Source of the DNA: an archaeon
Lineage (GTDB): Archaea; Thermoproteota; Thermoprotei_A; Marsarchaeales; Marsarchaeaceae
Reading direction: 5' to 3'
NCBI GenBank assembly: GCA_021800035.1
Contig: JAJYZJ010000015.1
Location: 1-37,404, forward strand
Length of the DNA: 37,404 nt
Position numbers and translations under genes: made by a program. The notes beneath the pieces are model-generated. The model was not told the origin of the DNA and made no database searches. It saw only the letters and a program-made list of their open reading frames with translations. Numbering within the stretch: the stretch's first letter is position 1; each line of letters opens with the position of its first letter. Below are positions 953 to 35,835 of this stretch, piece after piece.

Positions 953-2098
953 CTATATTATGGTTCTCGCGTGGATGCTCCAGTAGAGGCGGTTATAGGC
1001 GAGTTTTCCCCACCAGTGTATCTGAGAAGGTGTAGGGGGATTCGGTGGATGAGTATAGTCGAACTTGATATAGGTAGCCTGGTCCAGCCCCGTAGCTATA
1101 TAGCAGAAAACGGAGCCCGTATAGTCACGTTTGCTACCGCCCCCGGCTGCGTCCACTGAGACGTTGTTGGCCACCACGTAGGACTCGTAGTCGGCCGTGG
1201 ATCCGGCCTTGGAAATGGGTATGTCGGTTGTGTCACCCATGACATAAACGTCGTCGTGACCCTTCATCTGCAGGGAGTACTTGTCTGTGGGCACCCAGTT
1301 GCGTCTGTCTCCTATTCCGGAGTCGCCGAGTACCTGAGCGCCCTTATGCGGCGGCACCGCAATCAGCAGATCGTAGTTCAGGCTTTCTCCTTCTTTAGAA
1401 GTGATCTTCTTTCCGGAGGGGTCTACGCCGGCGAGCGTGAACTGGCTGTGAACGTTTATTCCCCTCTGGTCGAACACGCCGGTCATCATCTTGTTGACGT
1501 TGGGAATCCCGAACACGCCCGGCACAGGATAGCAGTAATGCAGGTTTACTTTGTCCCTGATTCCCTTCCTCTTGAAGTAGTCATCCAGCATGAGCGTGAT
1601 TTCAAGCGGGGCAACCGGGCACTTGTGTGGAAGCATGGCCACGTCCACCACTATGTTGCCTCCCTGAAAGCCGCGCACAGAGTCCCACATCTTCTGAGCG
1701 CCATCCAAGCTGAAGAACGTTTGGGCGCCCTCCTTGAACCCGGGTATCTCGTCCACCTGTATATGCGAACCCGTGGCCAGAACAAGGTAGTCGTAGTTGT
1801 GGGTTGAGCCATCTGCTGTAACAACGGCTTTATCCGCAGGGTTCAGCTTGGTAATCGTGCCCTTATCTCCCGTGATCAAGCCCACCCGGCGATCCAGCAG
1901 CTCCCTTTCCTCTGCGAAGGTGTCCTTTGGATGCATTTCACCCATTGATACCAGCATAAACCCCGGCTGATAGTAGTGTTTCTGGGATCTGTCCAAAACC
2001 GTAACCTTGACCTCTCCTCTGGCCATTTCGTCAGAAAGCTTCTGAGCGATTCTGTTAGCAACTATTGTTCCACCTATGCCTCCGCCAGCCACAAGCAC
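953..2098 (-). CDS. sqr: sulfide:quinone oxidoreductase (SQR family flavoprotein)
   Basis: A 381-residue pyridine-nucleotide-disulfide-type flavoprotein. The FAD dinucleotide motif Gly-Gly-Gly-Ile-Gly-Gly lies at residues 5-10, a second FAD element Val-Tyr-Val-Met-Gly-Asp at 284-289, and the SQR-type Pro-His-Lys-Cys-Pro motif puts one redox Cys at 160. A second Cys at 332 (Ser-Val-Phe-Cys-Tyr) matches the other conserved redox Cys. The third Cys found near position 130 in many SQRs is absent. The C-terminus is aromatic and basic, as expected for monotopic membrane attachment. SQR oxidises sulfide and passes electrons to the quinone pool. The GTG start at 2098 is chosen because GGTGG lies about 11 nt upstream and the FAD motif follows at once. 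Upstream is a TusA-like gene (11 nt gap), downstream a DsrE-like gene. Confidence 0.88.
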   Translation of the reverse strand: MLVAGGGIGGTIVANRIAQKLSDEMARGEVKVTVLDRSQKHYYQPGFMLVSMGEMHPKDTFAEERELLDRRVGLITGDKGTITKLNPADKAVVTADGSTHNYDYLVLATGSHIQVDEIPGFKEGAQTFFSLDGAQKMWDSVRGFQGGNIVVDVAMLPHKCPVAPLEITLMLDDYFKRKGIRDKVNLHYCYPVPGVFGIPNVNKMMTGVFDQRGINVHSQFTLAGVDPSGKKITSKEGESLNYDLLIAVPPHKGAQVLGDSGIGDRRNWVPTDKYSLQMKGHDDVYVMGDTTDIPISKAGSTADYESYVVANNVSVDAAGGGSKRDYTGSVFCYIATGLDQATYIKFDYTHPPNPPTPSQIHWWGKLAYNRLYWSIHARTII

Positions 2099-5810: not shown

Positions 5811-6544
5811 TCAGACAGTTATTCCTCCATCAACAACGACCACCTCTCCCGTCACAAAGGAGCTATCTTCAGATAGGAGAAAACGCACTACCCTAGCGAT
5901 TTCTTCAGGCTTACCAAAACGCTTCAGTGGAGTTCTTTCTATCATTTTATCGAAGATTTCATTATTTTTCTTGATGTACTGCGTCATATCTGTATCAATG
6001 AATCCGGGTGCAACAGCATTCACTCTAATGGATGGACCAAGGTTTAGGGCAAGTGCTTTTGTAAGACTGGACAGTGCAGCCTTGCTGGCACTGTATGATA
6101 TGGACCCTGGTAATGGTCTGAGTGAGGCGGCAGAGCTCATATTGACAATGGATGAATTCTCCTCAAGCAGATCAAGAAGATTCTTTACAATTAACAAGGG
6201 AGCCTTTACATTTATGCCAAAAACGATATCCCACATCTCTTCCGTCACCCTGGTCAGATTATCACCAGCTCCTGCGCCTGCGTTATTTACTATGCCCTTT
6301 AATTTAACGCCGGCATTTCGACCTGATCGCAAAGATCCTTGATCCCGCGTGATGAGGACAGGTCGGCGTTTACAAGTACAACATTAGAACCGTTTTTCCT
6401 ACATTCTTCCGCAGCTTTCAATGATGCCTCGGCACTCCGGTTATAATGGAGGATCAGATCATACCCGGATTTTGAAAGCTCAACGGCAACTGCGAACCCG
6501 ATACCCCTTGACGATCCTGTAATTAGAATGTATCCGTTTCCCAT
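5811..6544 (-). pseudogene. short-chain dehydrogenase/reductase (FabG-like), frameshifted
   Basis: Two frames together make a full SDR of about 245 residues. The N-terminal piece (6544 to about 6310) has the cofactor motif Thr-Gly-Ser-Ser-Arg-Gly-Ile-Gly and the Asn-Ala-Asp-Leu strand. The second piece (about 6330 to 5811) has Val-Asn-Asn-Ala-Gly, catalytic Ser in Asn-Met-Ser-Ser-Ala, catalytic Tyr-Ser-Ala-Ser-Lys, and the usual Val-Val-Asp-Gly-Gly end. The frames switch near 6310-6330, consistent with a 1-nt insertion or deletion. All catalytic residues remain, so the break is recent or a sequencing error. SDRs of this type reduce or oxidise keto and hydroxy groups with NAD(P)H; the substrate cannot be told. 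ATG 6544 fits a TATA box about 30 nt upstream. Confidence 0.8.
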
Positions 6545-6569
6545 TGAATAAACCACGGCTACCTTTGAT

Positions 6570-10595: not shown

Positions 10596-11933
10596 CTACC
10601 GGAAGATGTCTTCTGGCGTATATACTAGGTAGCCTGAGTCAAGGAGCTGCTTCTTCTGCTCTATGCTTTTTGCCATGGGGCCGTAAATCTTTTCCTTTGC
10701 TCTTATGTTGAGCACTTTGTTCTTGAGTTTATCCAGCAAGGTTTGGGCTTCTCTGAGAGTTAGCGTGCTCCACTTTACTTCGAGAGCGTAAGCGAGCTTT
10801 TCTTGTCTGGTTGTAGCAACAATGTCTATTTCGGTGTCTTTGTCGACCCACCGCCCTACGTAGCTGGGACTGAGCCTGAGTCTGCCTCTGGCTATCAGCT
10901 TTATGATGTAACCCAGTGCCACTTTCTCAAACACTCTTCCTAGGTGCGCGCCTAGTTCCTGCTCAAGCTGCTCCCAGACCACACGGTTAAGACCCGCCTC
11001 CAGAAGATTTCTGTTTGCCCAAACAAATCGGAACCAGAAATGCAGAAACGGATCCGCGAGCACATAGCTCACCTTCCCCCTTGGCTGCGTGACCTCCCTG
11101 GTCAACAGCCTCATGGTCGTCAGCGACGAGATGTACTTCGGCAGGTTTTCTCGCGGGATCTTAGTATAGTCTGCTATCTCGCTTACACTCTGCCGACCCG
11201 CTGAGGCCGCACCCATAATATCCATGTAGGCGCCAAGACTTCTCACCTCCTGCATAAGAAGGAACTCGGGCTCGTCGTAGAGCGCACCCTCCTTACTTAG
11301 AATCAGTCTTTGAGCGTTTTCTACGGCGCTTAGCGATTCCTCCACGCGCTCAAGGTAGGCTGGTGTGCCTCCGAAGATACCGTAGGTCGCCATCAATTCC
11401 TCAGGTTCCTTGCTGGGGAACCATTCCGCAAGCGCTTGCGGCTAGAGCGGGCTCACTTCGAGCGTGAGGCTCTTACGGCCATAGAGGGGTGCGTCCCCCC
11501 TCAGTGAGACCCTTTCAATCATACATGTAGATGAACCTGTGAGAACCAGTTTAGCATTGGTTTTTGAGAATCTTTCATCCCACTAATGCTGTAAAAGCGA
11601 AACTGCGCCCCGCATTTCAGACAGATTCTGGAACTCGTCGAGGACAATTATTTTACCTTGCCCAAAGATTTCGGAGAAGTACTGAAATACGGATTCTAGG
11701 TCGCGGAAGACAGCCCCCGCGGGAAGAGTTGCACCCAAACCCTTCGAGAAGCCTCTCAAGAGGGAGGCTTGTCCACCCCTCGGTACAAAAACGTAAACAC
11801 CTTCCCTCGCCTTTAGGAACTCCAAAAGTAAGCGGGTTTTGCCCACGCGTCTCCTACCGTAAACCACGGCGATCCCGGCTCATTCCTGTGAGGCGAACTC
11901 TTTAAGTGATTTCAGCTCATCTTGTCGGTTCAC
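10596..11933 (-). pseudogene. archaeal AAA ATPase with DUF234-type C-terminal domain, three in-frame stops
   Basis: A single frame of about 446 codons covers the full family length. Visible parts are Phe-Val-Asn-Arg-Gln-Asp-Glu-Leu at the N-terminus, Walker A Gly-Arg-Arg-Arg-Val-Gly-Lys-Thr, Walker B Ile-Val-Leu-Asp-Glu-Phe-Gln, sensor Leu-Val-Leu-Thr-Gly-Ser-Ser, Pro-Leu-Tyr-Gly-Arg, and a long C-terminal domain with Asp-Pro-Phe-Leu-His-Phe-Trp-Phe-Arg-Phe and a nuclease-like Glu-Ile-Asp-Ile-Val-Ala ... Ala-Leu-Glu-Val-Lys-Trp motif. It is interrupted by TGA at 11880-11882, TAG at 11583-11585 and TAG at 11442-11444, with no frameshift. Translation of the C-terminal 266 residues could restart at ATG 11396 or 11393, but the ATPase core would be lost. 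Confidence 0.8.
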
Positions 11934-11959
11934 AAACCTTAGGAATATGGCCCTAAGGA

Positions 11960-12085
11960 TTACAATCCTATAGTTAAGTGTTTGTAGTCAGGGGGTATTA
12001 TCGTCTTAATGTTGGCTTTCCGCATCGCGGATAGGATCGTTGCGTCCCCGCCTCCTATTCCAAGGAGGGAGCGCCCTTCGACCAT
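11960..12085 (-). pseudogene. PIN-domain (VapC-like) C-terminal remnant
   Basis: A 41-codon frame from ATG 12085 ends in TAA at 11960. It contains Gly-Gly-Gly-Asp-Ala-Thr-Ile-Leu-Ser-Ala-Met followed by Ile-Lys-Thr-Ile-Ile-Pro-Pro-Asp. This resembles the last acidic motif of PIN ribonucleases (Gly-x-x-Asp-Ala-x-Ile-Leu-Ala), followed by the final strand. The rest of a toxin of about 130 residues is absent. It overlaps nothing coding and sits next to the broken ATPase, so it is read as a relic. Confidence 0.4.
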
Positions 12086-19783: not shown

Positions 19784-20461
19784 CTATTTGGGCACATCCG
19801 AAGCGTTTTCTTTCTTAGCTTCAGCCGCCTTAAGGACTCTCCCATGACTTTCTTTTGCGCCGTACCTTTGATCCAGCCTTTCTTTGAAGGCCGACGCGCA
19901 CTCTTCTCCCGAAAAGTAATATTTGCCCCCATAGTAGTGCCTGATAAGTGGCTTACCGTATATTACGCAGTCGCAGAATCTACACCTGAACTGTAATGGG
20001 GTGTCGGGTTTGACTCGGCTTCCGTATTCTTCTTTGAGAACCTTAGTGGAAACGTAGACGGAAAAACCACTGAGCCCGAACCCCTTGCTTAGCTTGAACA
20101 TAAGGGTGTTTAGGTGTTCCATGTCCTCTATGTCTACCTCAAGCATAACGCTTTTGCTTCCCGCCACAAAAGAAGCAGCTCGGATTTCTTCGACTTTTTC
20201 GAGGTTCTCTTTGAATTGGTCGGTGTTTTCAACATCCACATCCGCCAGCACAAAGGCCTTGACCCTACCCATAATTTTTTCAGAGTCAACAACCACTGTA
20301 AACTTTTTAATGAGTCCCAGCTTGATCAAATTTCTCAGCCTAGCCCGAACAGTGGGTAGGCTCACCCCCACTCTGTCAGCGATGTCTTTATACATCATTC
20401 TTCCGTCTTGTTGGAGTAACTCGATGATCTGTGCATCCACTGAATCTATTCGATAAGACAT
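19784..20461 (-). CDS. Lrp/AsnC-type metalloregulator with TRASH domain
   Basis: A 225-residue protein. Residues 10-50 form an AsnC-type HTH (Asp-Arg-Val-Gly-Val-Ser-Leu-Pro-Thr-Val), about 65-140 an alpha/beta domain, and 158-195 a TRASH domain with C160, C163, C165 and C188 in Arg-Cys-Arg-Phe-Cys-Asp-Cys and Ser-Gly-Glu-Glu-Cys. TRASH domains bind soft metals. This architecture is known from archaeal metal regulators such as the Sulfolobus CopT/CopR type, which control copper or mercury genes. The gene lies downstream of merA on the same strand but 453 nt away, so it probably has its own promoter (a CTTTTTACG element lies about 33 nt upstream). Control of the mercury genes is inferred. Confidence 0.85.
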   Translation of the reverse strand: MSYRIDSVDAQIIELLQQDGRMMYKDIADRVGVSLPTVRARLRNLIKLGLIKKFTVVVDSEKIMGRVKAFVLADVDVENTDQFKENLEKVEEIRAASFVAGSKSVMLEVDIEDMEHLNTLMFKLSKGFGLSGFSVYVSTKVLKEEYGSRVKPDTPLQFRCRFCDCVIYGKPLIRHYYGGKYYFSGEECASAFKERLDQRYGAKESHGRVLKAAEAKKENASDVPK

Positions 20462-20914: not shown

Positions 20915-22349
20915 TTACTCGACACAGCAGCTCATCCTGTCCACGCTTCTAACAAAAGCCTGAGCGGCCAGTTTCAGTGCTTCTGAAAGCGTGGGGAAAA
21001 CATGCGTTGTTTCAACAATTTCTTTGTAGGTCGAACCGTGCTTGATAGCCAGAGCCGCTTCAACTATGTACTCCGTGGCATTGGGAGATAACGCGTGGGC
21101 GCCCACCACTTTGCCGGTGTGGGGGTCGAGAACAAGTTTCACCAAGCCTTCGTCTTCTCCGAGTATTTGAGCCTTGGCCACTTTATCTAAACCCACTATT
21201 CGACACGAACACGCATTGGTCTTGGCCATCACCTCTTCTTCAGTCATACCCACCGAAGCCACTTGAGGATTTGTGAACACAGCCCACGGCGCCGACGTGT
21301 AGTCAACCCGTTCTTGGCCGCCCAGGATGTTAGCGGCTGCTACAACACCTTCCCTAGCGGCCAGAGTCTCAAGCATGAGCCTCTTGGACACACAGTCCCC
21401 CGCAGCGTATACTGACCGACCAGTGGTTCGCATTCCGGAGTCCACGACAATGAAACCCTTCCTGTCAGTGTTGATCCCCGCCTTTCCGAGTTCCAGTTCA
21501 TCTGTGTTCGGTCTTCTCCCGGTGGCCACAAGTATTTCGTCAACCTCAAGCCTTGTCTTGCCTTGGGGTGTGACCACGTCGAGAACCTTGGCTCCACGGG
21601 CGCGGCTCACGCTGCTAATCCTAGCCTTAACGTAGAATTTGACACCTTGAGACTCAAGTCTGCCCATCAGCGCACTGGACACTTCTGGTTCAGCGGTGGG
21701 CAGTATGCTGGGCATGGCTTCCACCAAGTGAACATCGACGCCCAAGTGGGAGAACGCCTGCCCCAATTCGAGACCTATTGCACCGCCGCCTATCACTGCC
21801 ATGCTTCCGGGCTTCTCCTTCATATTCCATACTGTATCACTCGTAATGTACTCGGTGTCAGCCAGTCCTTCGATTGGTGGAGCTGATGGCCTAGAACCCA
21901 CGGCTATCAGCACATTTTTGGCAGAGAGCTGTTCCACCTCACCGTTGGAAATGGTGACGGCACTCGAAGAATCGAACTGCGCTTTACCCTCTAAAACCGT
22001 TATGTTGGGATAATAACTCAGAACTTTGCTGTACTTTTCAGTTCGAAGCTCCGAAACCAAGTCCGCGACGCCGTCCATCAACTCGGGAAAGTTGAGCTCT
22101 GGTCTAGCTACACCCACGCCACGGAAAAGCTTGTGTTGAGGATAATAGTACCTATGAGAGGCTTCGAGGAGATATTTGGATGGAACACATCCCACGTTGA
22201 CACATGTTCCGCCTATCGGCCCCGTTCCAACCATGGCTACCTCCGCCTTGCCTTTGCTCAATTCGCTAAGCCTGATAGCCGCGGCGAACGCGGCCGCACC
22301 TCTTCCTAAAATCAGTACGTCGTACGAATTCTTCGTCGTCTGTGACCAC
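20915..22349 (-). CDS. merA: mercuric reductase, start region disturbed
   Basis: A MerA-type flavin disulfide reductase. Seen: FAD motif in Leu-Gly-Arg-Gly-Ala-Ala-Ala-Phe near the N-terminus, active-site Cys-Val-Asn-Val-Gly-Cys-Val-Pro-Ser-Lys, NADPH motif Gly-Gly-Gly-Ala-Ile-Gly-Leu-Glu, Tyr-Ala-Ala-Gly-Asp-Cys, and the Hg-specific C-terminal vicinal Cys pair Met-Ser-Cys-Cys-Val-Glu. There is no N-terminal NmerA domain. MerA reduces Hg(II) to volatile Hg(0) with NADPH. The MerA frame is open from 22375 but has no ATG, GTG or TTG until TTG 22261, which would cut off the FAD motif. GTG 22349, exactly 26 nt from a TATA-like box, is in a frame one base off. A 1-nt indel or an unusual start is implied. 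Confidence 0.85.
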
Positions 22350-23098: not shown

Positions 23099-23467
23099 GT
23101 GTACACACCTATCTGCCCCGGTTGTGGTTGCTCGCTAATCAGACTGGGTATCGTCCGTGAAAAGGCTGTATACTTCGTGTACGATTCAAAAGATTACTAC
23201 TTTTGCTGCCGTGACTGCCTGTCGTCGTTCCTTGATGACCCAGCCACCCACATTCAAAGACTCGAACGCATGTTTGTTTGCCCCGTATGTTTGGGTGAAA
23301 AGGATGTGACGGAAGGTGTAAAGCTTGACACAGAAGGAACTGAGCTGCTCTTCTGCAAATGCCCGATGTGCGTACGAAAATTCGATGGCAACAGAGAATT
23401 CTATTTGAGACAATACGTTGGAGATTATCTGGAGCAAGAACAGTCTTGGTACGCTGCGTGTTGCTGA
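23099..23467 (+). CDS. MerH-like double Cys-module protein (TRASH-like)
   Basis: A 122-residue soluble protein with two Cys modules. Module one has Ile-Cys-Pro-Gly-Cys-Gly-Cys and, after two aromatic-rich strands, Phe-Cys-Cys-Arg-Asp-Cys, a TRASH/YHS-like fold. Module two has Val-Cys-Pro-Val-Cys and Cys-Lys-Cys-Pro-Met-Cys. The chain ends in Tyr-Ala-Ala-Cys-Cys, a vicinal pair like that of MerA. In Sulfolobus the mer operon includes MerH, a small TRASH metal-trafficking protein; this larger gene beside merA plausibly has the same role, handing Hg(II) to regulator or reductase. GTG 23099 follows AAAGGAGTGG by 8 nt. It is divergent from merA. Confidence 0.65.
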   Translation: MYTPICPGCGCSLIRLGIVREKAVYFVYDSKDYYFCCRDCLSSFLDDPATHIQRLERMFVCPVCLGEKDVTEGVKLDTEGTELLFCKCPMCVRKFDGNREFYLRQYVGDYLEQEQSWYAACC

Positions 23468-23804: not shown

Positions 23805-25433
23805 ATGGTTTTTAAATACGTCTTAAGCGCCGACCGCTCGCAGTTATCCAACTACAGGGGAAACTTTCTTTATGGGTTCCTATCCTGCGGACCCGCGAAG
23901 GTTTCGCCCGAACCCGTGTACAGCATGATCTGCCCTACCAGGGATACTTACGAAAGGAGAACGGGCGTTTTGAAGCTTGCCCCCGTAGGATTGAGACGCG
24001 TCGAAGGCGCACTTGAAAAAACGCTGGGTTTGAGTTCGGTTGTAGCCCAGCACCCGTTTGAGATAGAAGGGGCGATCGATGAGAATACGAAGATAGTGGG
24101 TTTAACAGAGATGAGCCCCTTGGGCATTGGCACCGTGGACACAGCCATTAGCTGGCGTACAGACAACTGGAATCGAAAGTGGTTTATGACCCTTATGAGG
24201 CAGCTGAAGCAACTAAAGAAGCGGTTCAACTTTAAAGTCGTGGTTGGAGGACCCGGCTCTTGGCAGCTTCTGGGCCCTTTCACAGACTATCTGCGTGCAC
24301 AGGGAACACCCATCGCCGCTAAAGCCTCGCGTTTCAAAACAGCAGTGAACGGTTCGTTCACAAGGTTGAAGGCAAGTATAGACCCCTGGGTGAAAGAAGA
24401 ACTGGGCGTCGACCATGTCGTGGAAGGAGAAGCCGACGTCTTAGCACCAAGCATATTCGAAAACGTAGAAAACGGCGACGCACCAGAAGTCATACATTGC
24501 CTGACCAACTCAATCAGGGATTTCGAAGACATACCCGAAATCCGGCGGGCCACTCTCACGGGCTCCGTCGAGATAATGCGTGGCTGCGGGAGAGGATGCG
24601 ATTTCTGTGCGCCCAACCTGAGAACGAAGCGCGACTTTCCAGTTGAAAGAATTGTTAGAGAGGCCAGCGTGAACATCCACATGGAACACCGAGATGTCTG
24701 GCTTCTCTCGGAAGAGCTCACGTTGTACGGATGCGACAATAAGGATAAGGTGCCCAATCAGGACGCGATAATAGATCTTTTCACGGCTCTCAAGAAGGCG
24801 GGAGCCAGTAGAATAGGCTGCACCCACTGGACATTCGCAGGTGTGCGCGCAGCGCCCGAACTCATACATAGACTGAGCGAAATAAACGGTTTGCATCGCG
24901 ACTGGATGGGTGTGCAGCCCGGATTGGAGTGGGTTTCTCCCCGAATGGTCAAGAAGTTCATGCCATACAAGGTAAAGCCGTTTTCGCCAGAAGAGTACCC
25001 AGAAACCGTGAGGGAGGCTATAAAAATAATGAACAGGAATCACTACTATCCCGCGATAACTCTTGTTGTGGGCCACCCCGACGAAGAAGACGATGAAGTC
25101 GACATGACAACAGAGTTCATAGAGCGCCTTTCAAGGTTTGATAATATGAGGGGCATAGTCGCTCCCCTGCTTTACGTGGACTACTACAAACCGCACAGAA
25201 CCATGGACTACGACAAAATGAACGAGCATCACTGGCGGCTGTACTATACGGCGTGGAAACACAACGCAAAGGAATTTGGGGACACAATTTGGCTCGCCAC
25301 CCAGAACTTCGACTTCTTCAGCAGATTCGCAACCATACTCGGCGTCCATGCCCTAGACCACTTTATTCTGCGGTTCCTCAAGTCGGAGTTCAAAAAAAGA
25401 TTTCACTATGTCCCCGACTGGATGACGACCTGA
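23805..25433 (+). CDS. B12-binding-type radical SAM protein (paralog 1)
   Basis: A 542-residue enzyme. An N-terminal Rossmann-like domain (about 1-240) carries Val-Val-Gly-Gly-Pro-Gly near 146-151, like cobalamin-binding domains of this class but without a visible Asp-x-His-x-x-Gly loop. The radical SAM cluster motif Cys-Gly-Arg-Gly-Cys-Asp-Phe-Cys is at C261/C265/C268, preceded by Glu-Ile-Met-Arg-Gly. Enzymes of this type make methyl transfers or C-C bonds on unactivated carbons; archaeal tetraether ring synthases (Grs) are in this broad class. It shares collinear motifs with the protein at 33774-35447, so they are paralogs. Context with mercury genes is notable, but a direct link is unproven. 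Substrate unknown. Confidence 0.75.
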   Translation: MVFKYVLSADRSQLSNYRGNFLYGFLSCGPAKVSPEPVYSMICPTRDTYERRTGVLKLAPVGLRRVEGALEKTLGLSSVVAQHPFEIEGAIDENTKIVGLTEMSPLGIGTVDTAISWRTDNWNRKWFMTLMRQLKQLKKRFNFKVVVGGPGSWQLLGPFTDYLRAQGTPIAAKASRFKTAVNGSFTRLKASIDPWVKEELGVDHVVEGEADVLAPSIFENVENGDAPEVIHCLTNSIRDFEDIPEIRRATLTGSVEIMRGCGRGCDFCAPNLRTKRDFPVERIVREASVNIHMEHRDVWLLSEELTLYGCDNKDKVPNQDAIIDLFTALKKAGASRIGCTHWTFAGVRAAPELIHRLSEINGLHRDWMGVQPGLEWVSPRMVKKFMPYKVKPFSPEEYPETVREAIKIMNRNHYYPAITLVVGHPDEEDDEVDMTTEFIERLSRFDNMRGIVAPLLYVDYYKPHRTMDYDKMNEHHWRLYYTAWKHNAKEFGDTIWLATQNFDFFSRFATILGVHALDHFILRFLKSEFKKRFHYVPDWMTT

Positions 25434-28490: not shown

Positions 28491-28875
28491 CACACTAAAG
28501 AGACTCCACCCATGAAAAATCCGTTCATCCAAGGTGGATACCGAAGACCCCGACTTCAATATGCGTTGACGAACACTTTTTGTATCGGCTGCAACCAGAC
28601 TTCAAATACACTTTCGTTACTCCCTTACCCGTCGGGCCCTAATCAAGGCGACCGCGGAACATTAGGGGAACACACTCATTCTTCAAAGCGAGCGGGTCGA
28701 CATGCACAGCGGACGTTGTAGTGAGTGTGCCAGACTCAGTAAAGGTTACCGTTCGATTTGCATCTTGAGCGGATTGAAGCTTCGGGTTTCCAATCGAAAG
28801 AGGTTCGGGGCTCTAGTTTCATCGGCAAAAGAGTGGTGCTTATCGACAAATGAGTGTTTTGGTCGGGTGGAAAAA
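28491..28875. other. gap upstream of the CopZ-like gene
   Basis: The frame of the next gene stays open back to 28702, but the extra N-terminal 58 residues look random in composition, so this is treated as untranslated. No other feature was seen. Confidence 0.35.
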
Positions 28876-29379
28876 ATGCCCGAAGAATGTTGCGCTACAG
28901 AGGAAAGACATACAGGGTCCGCCTGCCCCTCGTGTCTCCGTTTAGGTCGACGGATTAAACCGATAACCGTTGCGGTGATGGTCAAAGAAACAAGGTTTTA
29001 CCTGCACGTTGAGAATCTACCACAGAACAAGATGTTCTTTTGCCCCACAGAAGACTGCAACGTCGTCTACTATGATACAGAACACCACCTGGTATTCAGA
29101 AAGCCAGATATTAGAGTCAAGGTGTGGCAGAAAGAGAAAGTGCGGGACGACGTACCCGTCTGCTACTGTTTCCACCATACGATTTCCTCCATCAGAAAAG
29201 AATACTTGAAGGAGGGCAAATCCGATGTCACAGCAAGAATCAGCGCCGAAGTAAGGGACGCGAACTGTCGGTGCGAAGTCGCAAATCCTCAGGGGTCGTG
29301 CTGCTTGGGTAACGTGTCGATGGCTCTGAAACTGGTCGGAATCGGCATGCAATCCGTTAAGCCGCGTGCAACTCAGTGA
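28876..29379 (+). CDS. CopZ N-terminal-type iron-sulfur/zinc metallochaperone
   Basis: A 167-residue protein from ATG 28876. It has Cys-Pro-Ser-Cys (C17/C20), then Phe-Phe-Cys-Pro-Thr-Glu-Asp-Cys-Asn-Val-Val-Tyr-Tyr (C56/C61), then Asp-Ile-Arg-Val-Lys-Val and Val-Cys-Tyr-Cys-Phe (C96/C98), and Cys-Arg-Cys plus Cys-Cys-Leu-Gly near the end (C131/C133, C142/C143). This order matches the N-terminal zinc and [2Fe-2S] domain of archaeal CopZ from Archaeoglobus and of mercury-resistance chaperones related to it. There is no C-terminal heavy-metal-associated Met-x-Cys-x-x-Cys domain, so it stands alone. It likely binds Cu or Hg thiolates and delivers them to a transporter or reductase. Confidence 0.75.
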   Translation: MPEECCATEERHTGSACPSCLRLGRRIKPITVAVMVKETRFYLHVENLPQNKMFFCPTEDCNVVYYDTEHHLVFRKPDIRVKVWQKEKVRDDVPVCYCFHHTISSIRKEYLKEGKSDVTARISAEVRDANCRCEVANPQGSCCLGNVSMALKLVGIGMQSVKPRATQ

Positions 29380-30784: not shown

Positions 30785-30965
30785 GCTTCAACGGCATTGT
30801 TAAATCCGTGAAACAAAATGGCAAAAGCAAAAATTCGTCGGGGGAATAAGCTTCATAAAGGTGTAAATGAACCAAGGCCTTCCACGGCCTCAGAAAACAG
30901 CGCTGGCGGATGCGGTTGCTGCTCGGATATCGCAAGTGAAGAAACCGCGGAGGCAGGAGAACGCC

Positions 30966-31208
30966 ATGACCAGTAGAGAAGGCTCTGACACACACAGAAA
31001 AAAAGACCTTGCGGCCCTGCTGCTCGTGTTCGCTTGCTGCGGTCTCCCCTTGCTCTTGGTAGTGGGCGCTAGCGCGGCTTCGGTTCTTATCAGCACAACC
31101 ACAACTGACATCGCGGCTGTGGGTATCTTGGTTTTAGGCGCCGCCGTATACTCCGTGAATAGACGTCGAAACAAGAGACAATCGGAGCAGACATGCTGTG
31201 AGGAGTAG
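30966..31208 (+). CDS. MerF-like two-helix membrane protein with two Cys pairs
   Basis: An 80-residue protein from ATG 30966, with GGCAGGAG upstream. Helix one (about 13-39) holds Phe-Ala-Cys-Cys-Gly-Leu-Pro-Leu-Leu-Leu, helix two (about 43-63) follows a short Thr-rich turn, and the C-terminus ends in Thr-Cys-Cys-Glu-Glu. MerF transporters have two helices and two vicinal Cys pairs that pass Hg(II) inward; pair one in helix one matches, and pair two is here at the C-terminus. It has no sequence identity claim beyond this pattern. It starts 182 nt after the helical repeat gene. Longer starts at 30867 or 30894 give a Lys/Arg-rich head. Confidence 0.6.
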   Translation: MTSREGSDTHRKKDLAALLLVFACCGLPLLLVVGASAASVLISTTTTDIAAVGILVLGAAVYSVNRRRNKRQSEQTCCEE

Positions 31209-31624: not shown

Positions 31625-31972
31625 TTGGAACTAGTATTAGCCGTGTTACTCCTGTTTCTCTGTTTTCTGCTATCCAAGCTGTTCTCCTCTAAAGCCACGC
31701 TCACGGCACAACTCTTTAAAACTCAGGGTGAAGTGGGTGGCACGCGCCCCGCAGAATTTGTGAGCATATTTCCCACAGTCATCAGTGTGGGATACTACGC
31801 TTAGGCACTGGGCTCCTTGGTGCTCGGACCACTGAGTACCTTTACTCCCCTGCTTTCAACCGAATACACCCATCCCTTCTTCCTGAACCTCGTAGCTGCC
31901 ATATTGATGGTGACCCTATATTTTTATTTGGCAAGAAAGTTGACTCAGCCGGTCTATAACAGTTCCGAGTAG
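31625..31972 (+). pseudogene. small membrane protein gene interrupted by TAG
   Basis: One frame of 115 codons from TTG 31625 to TAG 31970 encodes three hydrophobic segments: Leu-Val-Leu-Ala-Val-Leu-Leu-Leu-Phe-Leu, Val-Ser-Ile-Phe-Pro-Thr-Val-Ile-Ser-Val-Gly-Tyr-Tyr, and Leu-Val-Ala-Ala-Ile-Leu-Met-Val-Thr-Leu-Tyr-Phe-Tyr-Leu. It is broken only by TAG at 31802-31804, after Gly-Tyr-Tyr-Ala and before Ala-Leu-Gly-Ser-Leu-Val-Leu-Gly. No frameshift is needed. I do not recognise the family. It lies between the MerF-like and MerB-like genes. Confidence 0.4.
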
Positions 31973-32239: not shown

Positions 32240-32249
32240 CTATATATCG
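32240..32249 (+). promoter_or_regulatory. TATA-like box for the MerB-like gene
   Basis: CTATATATCG lies about 32 nt before GTG 32277 and would start transcription within a few bases of it. 31973-32239 holds nothing else I can support. Confidence 0.45.
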
Positions 32250-32276: not shown

Positions 32277-32744
32277 GTGCGCACCTCAAAAGACCATGCG
32301 GATGTCTTGGATGCTGTTGCGGACAAACGTAGGATGCTGAATCTAATTGTAAGTGCTGAGCCCACAGACTTCAAAGTGACTGTGGAAACAAAGGATGGAA
32401 AAGTCTTCTAGGTATATTGTGCGTTTGACACCATCATATACCACATTCTTACGAAAGAGACAATAACGGTAGAAACTTTTTTGGGGAACGAAGAAGCGGT
32501 GATCAGAATCCCAAGGGATAGAAGGGTGCTTGTCTCGTTTGTGCAACCCAGCTATTGGCACAGCTTACCCAGTGCGGCCGAAACGCCTTCACCCGTATGC
32601 CGTTTCCTTAAATTCTTTGGCAGTCGCCGAGAATTTGATGATTGGAAATCCTCGCTGGGGCCAGGCACGCAAATGTTCGTAGAGGTTATGACTGTCGAAG
32701 ATGCGATGCTGTTGGTGGACAAGGTGTTCGGCGAAGAAAGGTAG
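32277..32744 (+). pseudogene. merB: MerB-like organomercurial lyase with one in-frame TAG
   Basis: One frame of 155 codons from GTG 32277 to TAG 32742, broken only by TAG at codon 45 (32409-32411). Right after it comes Val-Tyr-Cys-Ala-Phe-Asp-Thr (C48, D51), matching the MerB catalytic segment Tyr-Ala-Trp-Cys-Ala-Leu-Asp-Thr (C96/D99 of E. coli plasmid MerB). Later comes Val-Cys-Arg-Phe-Leu-Lys-Phe-Phe (C108), matching Cys-His-Val-His-Phe-Phe (C159), then Asp-Asp-Trp-Lys and Glu-Val-Met-Thr-Val-Glu-Asp-Ala. All three catalytic residues are thus kept. The TAG falls where MerB has Tyr or nearby. The N-terminal winged-helix part of MerB is mostly missing. MerB splits C-Hg bonds to give Hg(II) for MerA. 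Readthrough, a split product (restart at TTG 32481 loses C48) or a pseudogene are possible. Confidence 0.7.
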
Positions 32745-33773: not shown

Positions 33774-35447
33774 TCATACTGACACCGATGATGTGGTCCG
33801 AGTGCTTCCAGTCAATCCGTAGCGTTTGACTCTGTCTATATCCAAGCCTCTCTTCCTGCAAATGGACTCCACCACTTTCATCATGACCCATCCGCCAAAC
33901 CTTATGAGGCCAGCGGTACCCATTCTCACAAAGGGGTTACCGCTACTATCCTTGACAGAGTCCCTAGCCGCCATCTTGGCCAGGTGTCTGTAAGACGCGT
34001 AGTAAACCGCCAGCTGAGACTCATCCAACATGTTCGAGCTGAAACTCTGACTTTTCAACACGCCGAGGGGCACGTGCTGCATCGGGGTCACAGTGAACTC
34101 GAAGGGCCTCCCGTCCACCTGCGAGTTACTCATCCTGTTGATGAGCGCCACGGTGTCCCAGTTATCCTCCGGATCCTCCTCTTCTTGGCCAACCTGAACA
34201 GTGAACGCGGGGCGCCAAAAATAACGGTTAAAGTTACGCGTCCCCTCCCACACAATGTCGGGCCAAGCCCCGTCCGAGCCTATCCGCAGCGGAAGGGTTT
34301 TGTTGGGCATATGAATCTTCGCCAACCTATCACTACCCGTCTCGACGCCCACTTGGACGCCTACCCAGTTAGACGGACCCGCGTGTACTATTCCCGAAAG
34401 CTTCTGGATGAGCTCCGGGTAAGCCGCCGGAATAGATATCCTACCATGCGTAGGGTTCGCGCTTCTAACACCCCTCACAGACATAACAGCAGACAGTAGA
34501 CTAGCTAAGGCGTCTACATTGGGCGTATACAAAGGTCCGTGTTGATAAGCAAAGAATTCATCGGTTTGTAGCCAAGCATTTGTAAAGCCGCCGTATTTCG
34601 CATTAACAGCCACTTCCTGAGCCACGCGCTCAGGAGAATAGTAGCGTAGGGGTCTCAGCGTGACTTCGCAGAAATCGCAGCCTATACCACAACCTCTCAT
34701 CACCTCGTTGAGTCCTTTGCAAGCGGGGTGTACTATGCTGGCTATCTCCTCCACTCGTGGGGAAGCTCTGCCAGAAGGCTTTCTTGATACGAAGCGTCCG
34801 TGAGGTCTGTAAAACCTTCTGAACCTGTCGTCAAAACTCATGAAACCCTGAGTGAATACGTTCGGGTCTAGTTTGCCCTGATAAACTTGGTCAAAAAGCA
34901 TGCACGCAACGTCGTCCACCTCCCCCTGATACGCAAAGTCGATTCCCAGCCGCTCCAATTCATCAGGGAAAACCATGAACTCCCATACACCTGGACCTCC
35001 GACAAGTATTTTGGCCTTGGTCCCCCTGCGAGCTGTGTTCAACCGACTAATCAGCGCCTCCCATTCTTTCCGAACCCAAGGATAAGAATTTGAGCCAAAC
35101 AACGCAGAATACGACATCGTGAGTGGCCCCAGTCCCAAAGGGTCCATCGTGGATACACCTATCACCTCCGTGTCTTCTCTTATAAAGGACTCAAGGAAGT
35201 CTGGATGCGGCACGGTCACTTCCTTCTCCGAATAACAACTCAACAGAGAGGCTTCCAGCTTACGTAGTGGATAAGGTGCCAATAGGGCCTGACCGTTTCT
35301 AAGAGGCCTGGGTACATCTCCTTTCAAAAAATAGTATAAAGAACGCGGGATACTGCTGCTGGGTGCGCAGGGCAAAAAATCGAGCAGGGGAAAATTACGG
35401 TAATCAAACATAAGCGTTGAGTCCGACACCAAGACGTATTTGGCCAT
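33774..35447 (-). CDS. B12-binding-type radical SAM protein (paralog 2)
   Basis: A 557-residue enzyme from ATG 35447, chosen because its N-terminus (Lys-Tyr-Val-Leu-Val-Ser-Asp, then Leu-Leu-Asp-Phe-Leu) aligns with paralog 1; GGTG lies just upstream. The N-terminal Rossmann-like domain has Leu-Val-Gly-Gly-Pro-Gly near 148-153 and Asp-Pro-Leu-Gly-Leu-Gly near 102-107 (paralog 1 has Ser-Pro-Leu-Gly-Ile-Gly). The SAM cluster motif Cys-Gly-Ile-Gly-Cys-Asp-Phe-Cys is at C253/C257/C260. A conserved His-Gly-Arg-Ile-Ser-Ile-Pro-Ala and Gly-Val-Glu-Thr-Gly-Ser follow. It could be a tetraether ring synthase (Grs-like) or another C-C bond former. It follows a Cys-pair membrane gene by 13 nt. Confidence 0.75.
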   Translation of the reverse strand: MAKYVLVSDSTLMFDYRNFPLLDFLPCAPSSSIPRSLYYFLKGDVPRPLRNGQALLAPYPLRKLEASLLSCYSEKEVTVPHPDFLESFIREDTEVIGVSTMDPLGLGPLTMSYSALFGSNSYPWVRKEWEALISRLNTARRGTKAKILVGGPGVWEFMVFPDELERLGIDFAYQGEVDDVACMLFDQVYQGKLDPNVFTQGFMSFDDRFRRFYRPHGRFVSRKPSGRASPRVEEIASIVHPACKGLNEVMRGCGIGCDFCEVTLRPLRYYSPERVAQEVAVNAKYGGFTNAWLQTDEFFAYQHGPLYTPNVDALASLLSAVMSVRGVRSANPTHGRISIPAAYPELIQKLSGIVHAGPSNWVGVQVGVETGSDRLAKIHMPNKTLPLRIGSDGAWPDIVWEGTRNFNRYFWRPAFTVQVGQEEEDPEDNWDTVALINRMSNSQVDGRPFEFTVTPMQHVPLGVLKSQSFSSNMLDESQLAVYYASYRHLAKMAARDSVKDSSGNPFVRMGTAGLIRFGGWVMMKVVESICRKRGLDIDRVKRYGLTGSTRTTSSVSV

Positions 35448-35460
35448 CACCAGTTCGCCC

Positions 35461-35835
35461 CTACGTGGTACGTTGCCCCCTATGTTTGGCGTTGACGGCA
35501 TGAGCGACCAGTAGCGTCAAAAAAACTGCGTCGACAAGTAGAAGACCACTCTGTGAGCGCACAAAAGAAGGGTCCGAAAAAGACCGCATGGCTTCTTCGT
35601 GGGCAAGCGGCAGTCCACAGCAGAGTAGCATAGCCAACGCGTTTACAACAACCTTTGCAGGTAGTCTGCCGCCTAAGCGTTCAACCAGCTCTGCAGCTAA
35701 CTGAAGGGTTAATTTGTGAGCCTGAATATGAGTTTCAGATCCAACCTTAAGACTTCTAGTCGGTTGGCTTAGTTTTCTAAGAAAGAAGAATTCTTCTAAG
35801 CGCTCACTTGTTCTCGTGCCAGAAACACTCATCAT
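35461..35835 (-). CDS. MerF-like membrane protein with Cys-Cys-Gly-Leu-Pro motif
   Basis: A 124-residue protein. The first 60 residues are soluble and helical (Leu-Thr-Leu-Gln-Leu-Ala-Ala-Glu-Leu-Val). Helix one (about 63-80) contains Met-Leu-Leu-Cys-Cys-Gly-Leu-Pro-Leu, and helix two is at about 98-115. The Cys-Cys-Gly-Leu-Pro-Leu string is also found in the protein at 30966-31208, so the two share a motif seen in small Hg transporters. Only one Cys pair is present here. It heads a four-gene leftward cluster (this gene, radical SAM, zinc ribbon, CBS) with gaps of 13, 7 and 15 nt. Confidence 0.55.
   Translation of the reverse strand: MMSVSGTRTSERLEEFFFLRKLSQPTRSLKVGSETHIQAHKLTLQLAAELVERLGGRLPAKVVVNALAMLLCCGLPLAHEEAMRSFSDPSFVRSQSGLLLVDAVFLTLLVAHAVNAKHRGQRTT

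Follow-up and report, generated by a model that had tools for sequence, protein, structure and literature searches.

A short MerB-like gene interrupted by a TAG codon in the mercury island of a hot-spring Marsarchaeota archaeon

Introduction

The closest known systems to the locus described here are both bacterial and archaeal. The bacterial one is the organomercurial lyase MerB of the plasmid R831b type (PDB 1s6l, 3f0o, 3f2f), in which C96, D99, and C159 are the catalytic residues. The archaeal ones are the MerB of Candidatus Marsarchaeota G2 archaeon ECH_B_1 (NEXG01000020.1) and the MerB of Metallosphaera yellowstonensis MK1 (NZ_JH597768.1), both short proteins encoded by uninterrupted genes. 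A survey of 84,032 genomes published in 2021 recorded MerB in 11 archaeal genomes, none of them of Crenarchaeota, and its authors inferred a mesophilic setting for the entry of MerB into the mer system (PMC8261052). A genome paper of 2020 had, however, mentioned merB in M. yellowstonensis (PMC7325606), and thus the short MerB is uncommon in Archaea but has been noted before.

Here we describe a merB-like gene of a hot-spring Marsarchaeota archaeon of the same family as ECH_B_1, whose genome assembly (2.12 Mb in 130 contigs, 85% complete) encodes a single MerB, as judged by profile search. The gene is part of a stretch of 37,404 nucleotides, referred to below as the window. With R831b MerB, its product has in common the fold of the catalytic domain, the equivalents of C96, D99, and C159, and the position of the preceding Tyr, but it has neither the winged helix nor an equivalent of C117, is only about 15–20% identical, and is interrupted by a TAG codon. 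The ECH_B_1 protein, 38% identical, and the M. yellowstonensis protein, 32% identical, carry the same variant at position 117. The ECH_B_1 locus also shares with the window two radical SAM proteins, a 467-amino-acid membrane protein, a second, MerB-associated membrane protein, and a protein with a CCGLP motif, but it differs in having an HMA-domain-like gene directly ahead of merB, no such gene being found in the window. In M. yellowstonensis, as in the window, merA and the MerB-associated membrane protein are present, but in the compact order merA-merB-membrane protein. SaoL, a MerB-like organometallic lyase (NF040728), weakly resembles the window protein in the part around its first catalytic residues; at 19.6 bits, the score is well under those of the NCBIfam MerB models (35.5 and 31.3 bits), and the SaoL cut-off of 140 is far from reached.

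The merB-Like Gene

The gene is a single frame of 155 codons with a GTG start, in which the only internal stop is a TAG at codon 45 (Table 1), exactly as the initial annotation had described it. The translation reads VRTSKDHADVLDAVADKRRMLNLIVSAEPTDFKVTVETKDGKVF up to the TAG and VYCAFDTIIYHILTKETITVETFLGNEEAVIRIPRDRRVLVSFVQPSYWHSLPSAAETPSPVCRFLKFFGSRREFDDWKSSLGPGTQMFVEVMTVEDAMLLVDKVFGEER from there to the terminator. Both parts are coding by log-odds based on the genome's own codon usage, with values of 6.3 over the 44 codons before the TAG and 7.6 over the 110 codons after it, and a TATA-like element about 30 bases ahead of the GTG is in line with the earlier call of a normal promoter.

Table 1. 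Features of the window, with coordinates in the window.
Feature	Coordinates	Strand	Evidence or comment
Short-chain dehydrogenase	5811–6556	-	Split by a frameshift near 6300–6330
Archaeal ATPase_2/DUF234 gene	10596–11990	-	TGA 11880, TAG 11583, and TAG 11442 in one frame; decayed
Lrp/AsnC-type regulator	19784–20461	-	Weak TRASH match; homologues beside merA in relatives
merA, mercury(II) reductase	20915–22327	-	TIGR02053 542.9 bits (cut-off 454)
YHS-domain protein, Cys-rich	23099–23467	+	PF04945; homologue in ECH_B_1 cluster
Radical SAM protein	23805–25433	+	Weak B12-binding-type similarity
Probable membrane protein, 467 aa	26213–27616	+	62% identical to ECH_B_1 homologue
MerB-associated membrane protein, 256 aa	27720–28490	+	Uncharacterised; invariant C35 and C107
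zf_CopZ-domain protein	28702–29379	+	PF18423 53.7 bits
Small membrane protein with CCGLP motif	30867–31208	+	MerF/MerT-like by eye only
TATA-like TATATAT	32241–32247	+	About 30 bases 5' of the GTG; sequence read directly
merB-like gene	32277–32744	+	PF03243 when read through, MerB fold, homologues; terminator also TAG
In-frame TAG	32409–32411	+	Codon 45; column is Tyr, invariant in all six aligned relatives
Catalytic C-A-F-D (C48, D51)	32418–32429	+	Equivalent to C96/D99 of R831b MerB
Second catalytic Cys (C108)	32598–32600	+	Equivalent to C159
Radical SAM protein	33774–35501	-	Weak B12-binding-type similarity

The assignment to MerB, proposed from the letters of the sequence, is upheld by profile, alignment, and fold. 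The joined frame, with the TAG treated as an unknown residue, matches PF03243 at 45.9 bits (cut-off 27), and the half following the TAG does so by itself at 35.4 bits. A profile built from the window protein together with two intact archaeal homologues retrieves MerB chains from the PDB (E 3e-6), placing YVYCALD over LYAWCALD and the Cys of CPYLKFF over the second catalytic Cys, and in this alignment, as in the multiple alignment, C48, D51, and C108, the residues singled out in the initial annotation, fall on C96, D99, and C159. An AlphaFold model of the read-through protein, folded with six homologues, is of high confidence (pLDDT 87.4, pTM 0.82), and its significant PDB matches are 11 MerB structures (E 1.2e-6 to 8.3e-5, TM-score of about 0.6) and nothing else. 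The cut-offs of the NCBIfam MerB equivalogs are missed (35.5 of 193 bits for NF009710 and 31.3 of 200 bits for NF033555), and they are likewise missed by the intact archaeal relatives.

Two features set this protein apart from R831b MerB. One is the region of Cys117, which in the multiple alignment contains no Cys in the window protein, in ECH_B_1, or in Metallosphaera, and on this ground the sequence is assigned to the MerB-like 117alt class defined in PMC8261052. Another is the N-terminal winged-helix domain, which is absent, only about 25–30 residues preceding the catalytic domain. The initial annotation was right that most of this domain is missing, yet the intact MerBs of ECH_B_1 and M. 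yellowstonensis are equally short and also devoid of it, and therefore its absence is a trait of the clade rather than a sign of damage.

The Mercury Island

The merB-like gene is found among genes suggestive of mercury detoxification. The conserved ones, among them merA and the genes for the Lrp-type regulator, the two radical SAM proteins, the 467-amino-acid membrane protein, and the MerB-associated membrane protein, are free of internal stops when aligned to relatives. The regulator is likely metal-responsive, and the YHS-domain protein is possibly a metal carrier. The homologue of the CCGLP protein in ECH_B_1 is encoded two genes ahead of merB. The two radical SAM proteins, divergent in sequence, flank the mercury genes, and each is 75–77% identical to a homologue in the same ECH_B_1 cluster. 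The 467-amino-acid protein, encoded directly before the MerB-associated one, belongs to no Pfam or NCBIfam family.

The merA frame has an anomaly of its own: no ATG, GTG, or TTG is found before the FAD-binding motif, and at the position of the start codon of the relatives there is an ACG (at about 22325–22327). This ACG may be a lesion in the start codon or an unusual start, or the consensus may be wrong at this point. A second MerA, 43% identical, is encoded on contig 41 of the source genome and may keep Hg(II) reduction independent of the island. Elsewhere on the contig, the ATPase gene and the short-chain dehydrogenase gene are disrupted (Table 1). Taken together, the lesions on the contig suit an accessory region under weak constraint, though the anomalies of merB and merA are of one base each and could be consensus errors.

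The In-Frame TAG

We consider the locus to be a real gene for a short organomercurial lyase without a winged helix, part of a Marsarchaeota mercury-detoxification island, of which this copy is probably a true null allele. Judging by the residues it retains, the intact enzyme would cut the carbon-mercury bond by means of C48, C108, and D51 and hand Hg(II) to MerA for reduction, and the intact homologues presumably do so, while the copy in the window would yield no enzyme. In the sequenced copy the TAG takes the place of an invariant Tyr three codons ahead of the first catalytic Cys, and translation would end after 44 residues. Re-initiation can be rejected as a way around the stop: no ATG, GTG, or TTG separates the TAG from Cys48. 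The next possible start in this frame is a TTG at 32481, past both C48 and D51, and hence re-initiation would give no catalytic fragment.

We infer that the mutation is real and recent, most likely a recent null allele or a strain polymorphism. There is a single disabling change in the 155 codons of merB, and since this lesion stands alone and the conserved island genes are without internal stops, selection may have persisted almost to the present, or else a consensus error may account for the TAG. As 3.6% of the substitutions in merB would create a stop, one stop without a second bounds the age of the null allele only loosely. Of the options raised in the initial annotation, that of a fresh pseudogene beside a full mercury island is thus the better fit in the form of a null allele, the island being otherwise conserved.

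The strongest competitor, an unlikely one but one that carries real weight, is that the TAG arose by an error in sequencing or assembly, or stems from a minority strain whose base was picked by the assembler, and that the living population has an intact merB. This would be consistent with the fact that just one point change, in an invariant column, breaks a frame that otherwise remains open and coding-like, with the conservation of the neighboring genes, which are intact and in frame, and with the fragmented and incomplete state of the assembly. However, the error rate of the assembly does not appear to be high, as about 81 kb of its conserved coding DNA contain no clear internal stop, and other genes on the contig carry multiple lesions typical of true decay.

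The initial annotation favored a further possibility, that the gene is read through its TAG, either as pyrrolysine or by amber suppression inserting Tyr or another residue, to give a full-length active lyase. The continuation of the frame, of its codon usage, and of the catalytic residues past the TAG would fit with such decoding, as would the two additional TAGs in the ATPase frame on the same contig, but the latter frame also holds a TGA. Most other evidence speaks against it. The source genome, as far as it is complete (85%), has no match to the pyrrolysyl-tRNA synthetase PylS, and none of the 45 tRNAs found in it, with introns allowed, has a CUA anticodon; in this typing by ARAGORN a few intron-containing tRNAs may be mistyped, but no CUA loop is apparent on reading the sequences. 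The anticodon of tRNA-Tyr is GUA. TAG serves as an ordinary terminator, ending about a third of the high-scoring frames sampled over 298 kb of the source genome (63 of 190), merB among them, and a codon-usage scan finds it in no excess among in-frame stops. When frames were aligned with a sister species over the above-mentioned 81 kb, 11 in-frame stops were seen, all near the starts of alignments and upstream of plausible start codons. Where the window protein has the TAG, R831b MerB and each of the six relatives in the alignment (from Marsarchaeota, Metallosphaera, two bacteria, and two other archaea) have Tyr. Genome-wide recoding of TAG is therefore rejected, given the lack of PylS and of a CUA tRNA, the frequent use of TAG as a terminator, and conserved genes without internal stops; readthrough driven by RNA structure is rejected as well, the sequence 3' of the TAG showing nothing notable (z -1.2). 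Decoding of the merB TAG remains very unlikely, with the proviso that the missing 15% of the genome could hold a suppressor tRNA or PylS. A second TAG-broken frame just upstream of merB (31638–31970) was also considered and set aside: its first 50 codons score as non-coding (-9.2), and it has no counterpart in the ECH_B_1 or Metallosphaera loci.

Finally, it is scarcely credible that the frame resembles merB by chance, or is a long-decayed pseudogene, and at no time encoded a MerB in this lineage: its stop codon and the missed equivalog cut-offs would be in keeping with this, but it is contradicted by the profile results (a PF03243 score above the Pfam cut-off, with all catalytic residues present), by the fold, and by synteny, the nearest uninterrupted homologue (38% identical over 131 residues) being found in a genome of the same family, next to the same genes.

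Distribution of Short MerB Proteins

The rarity of MerB in Archaea, also pointed out in the initial annotation, holds for the phylum as a whole, in which 5 of 398 genomes score above the PF03243 cut-off. Among 98 relatives, MerB is encoded by four: the source genome, ECH_B_1, M. yellowstonensis MK1 (G039), and one further genome (G092). In a scan of contigs for MerB, a single-sequence query returned nothing, and an alignment query returned four loci. Related short MerBs are also found in two gammaproteobacterial MAGs. These carry the YVYCALD motif and are each encoded beside a different small membrane protein, and in one of the two (L106) a MerR-like regulator is also adjacent. In another family of Thermoproteota (L009), a short MerB-like gene (1025–1462, minus strand) immediately follows the C-terminus of merA, and in a related locus (L007) a MerB-like match was reported with a TGA and a TAA in frame. 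A plasmid or viral source is not supported: only two Deinococcus plasmid merB genes were matched, at 29% identity, and no viral sequence.

A MerB-Associated Membrane Protein

No Pfam or NCBIfam family gives the 256-amino-acid membrane protein of the island a meaningful score, and the protein is present in exactly the same four of the 98 genomes as this MerB, in each case close to it. Simple counting gives such a co-occurrence a probability by chance of about 3e-7, which rises to about 7e-6 when the near-identical copies of G039 and G092 are taken as one. The gene for this protein is separated from merB by about 0.2 kb in Metallosphaera, by 0.7 kb in ECH_B_1, and by 3.8 kb in the window. Across the 398 genomes of the phylum, a profile search gave one further match only, a weak one, and the protein is absent from the more distant MerB carriers. 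Its structure model is all-helical and of low confidence (pLDDT 54).

The association with MerB suggests that this protein may move mercurials. A broader proposal, which we put forward tentatively, is that Thermoproteota of acid hot springs share a distinct module for organomercury detoxification, whose merB was recently knocked out in the window. Such a module would consist of a MerB lacking both the winged helix and Cys117, and of a dedicated polytopic membrane protein, with two invariant Cys residues, that would take up or hand over organomercurials or Hg(II).

Conclusion

The TAG in merB is in itself ordinary. Together with the intact relatives from Marsarchaeota and Metallosphaera, the locus places MerB within the mercury islands of thermoacidophilic Thermoproteota, and it thus has a bearing on how methylmercury is turned over in acid hot springs and on the spread of MerB, while the tight pairing of MerB with the membrane protein makes the latter a candidate, open to experiment, for a transporter of mercurials in Archaea.
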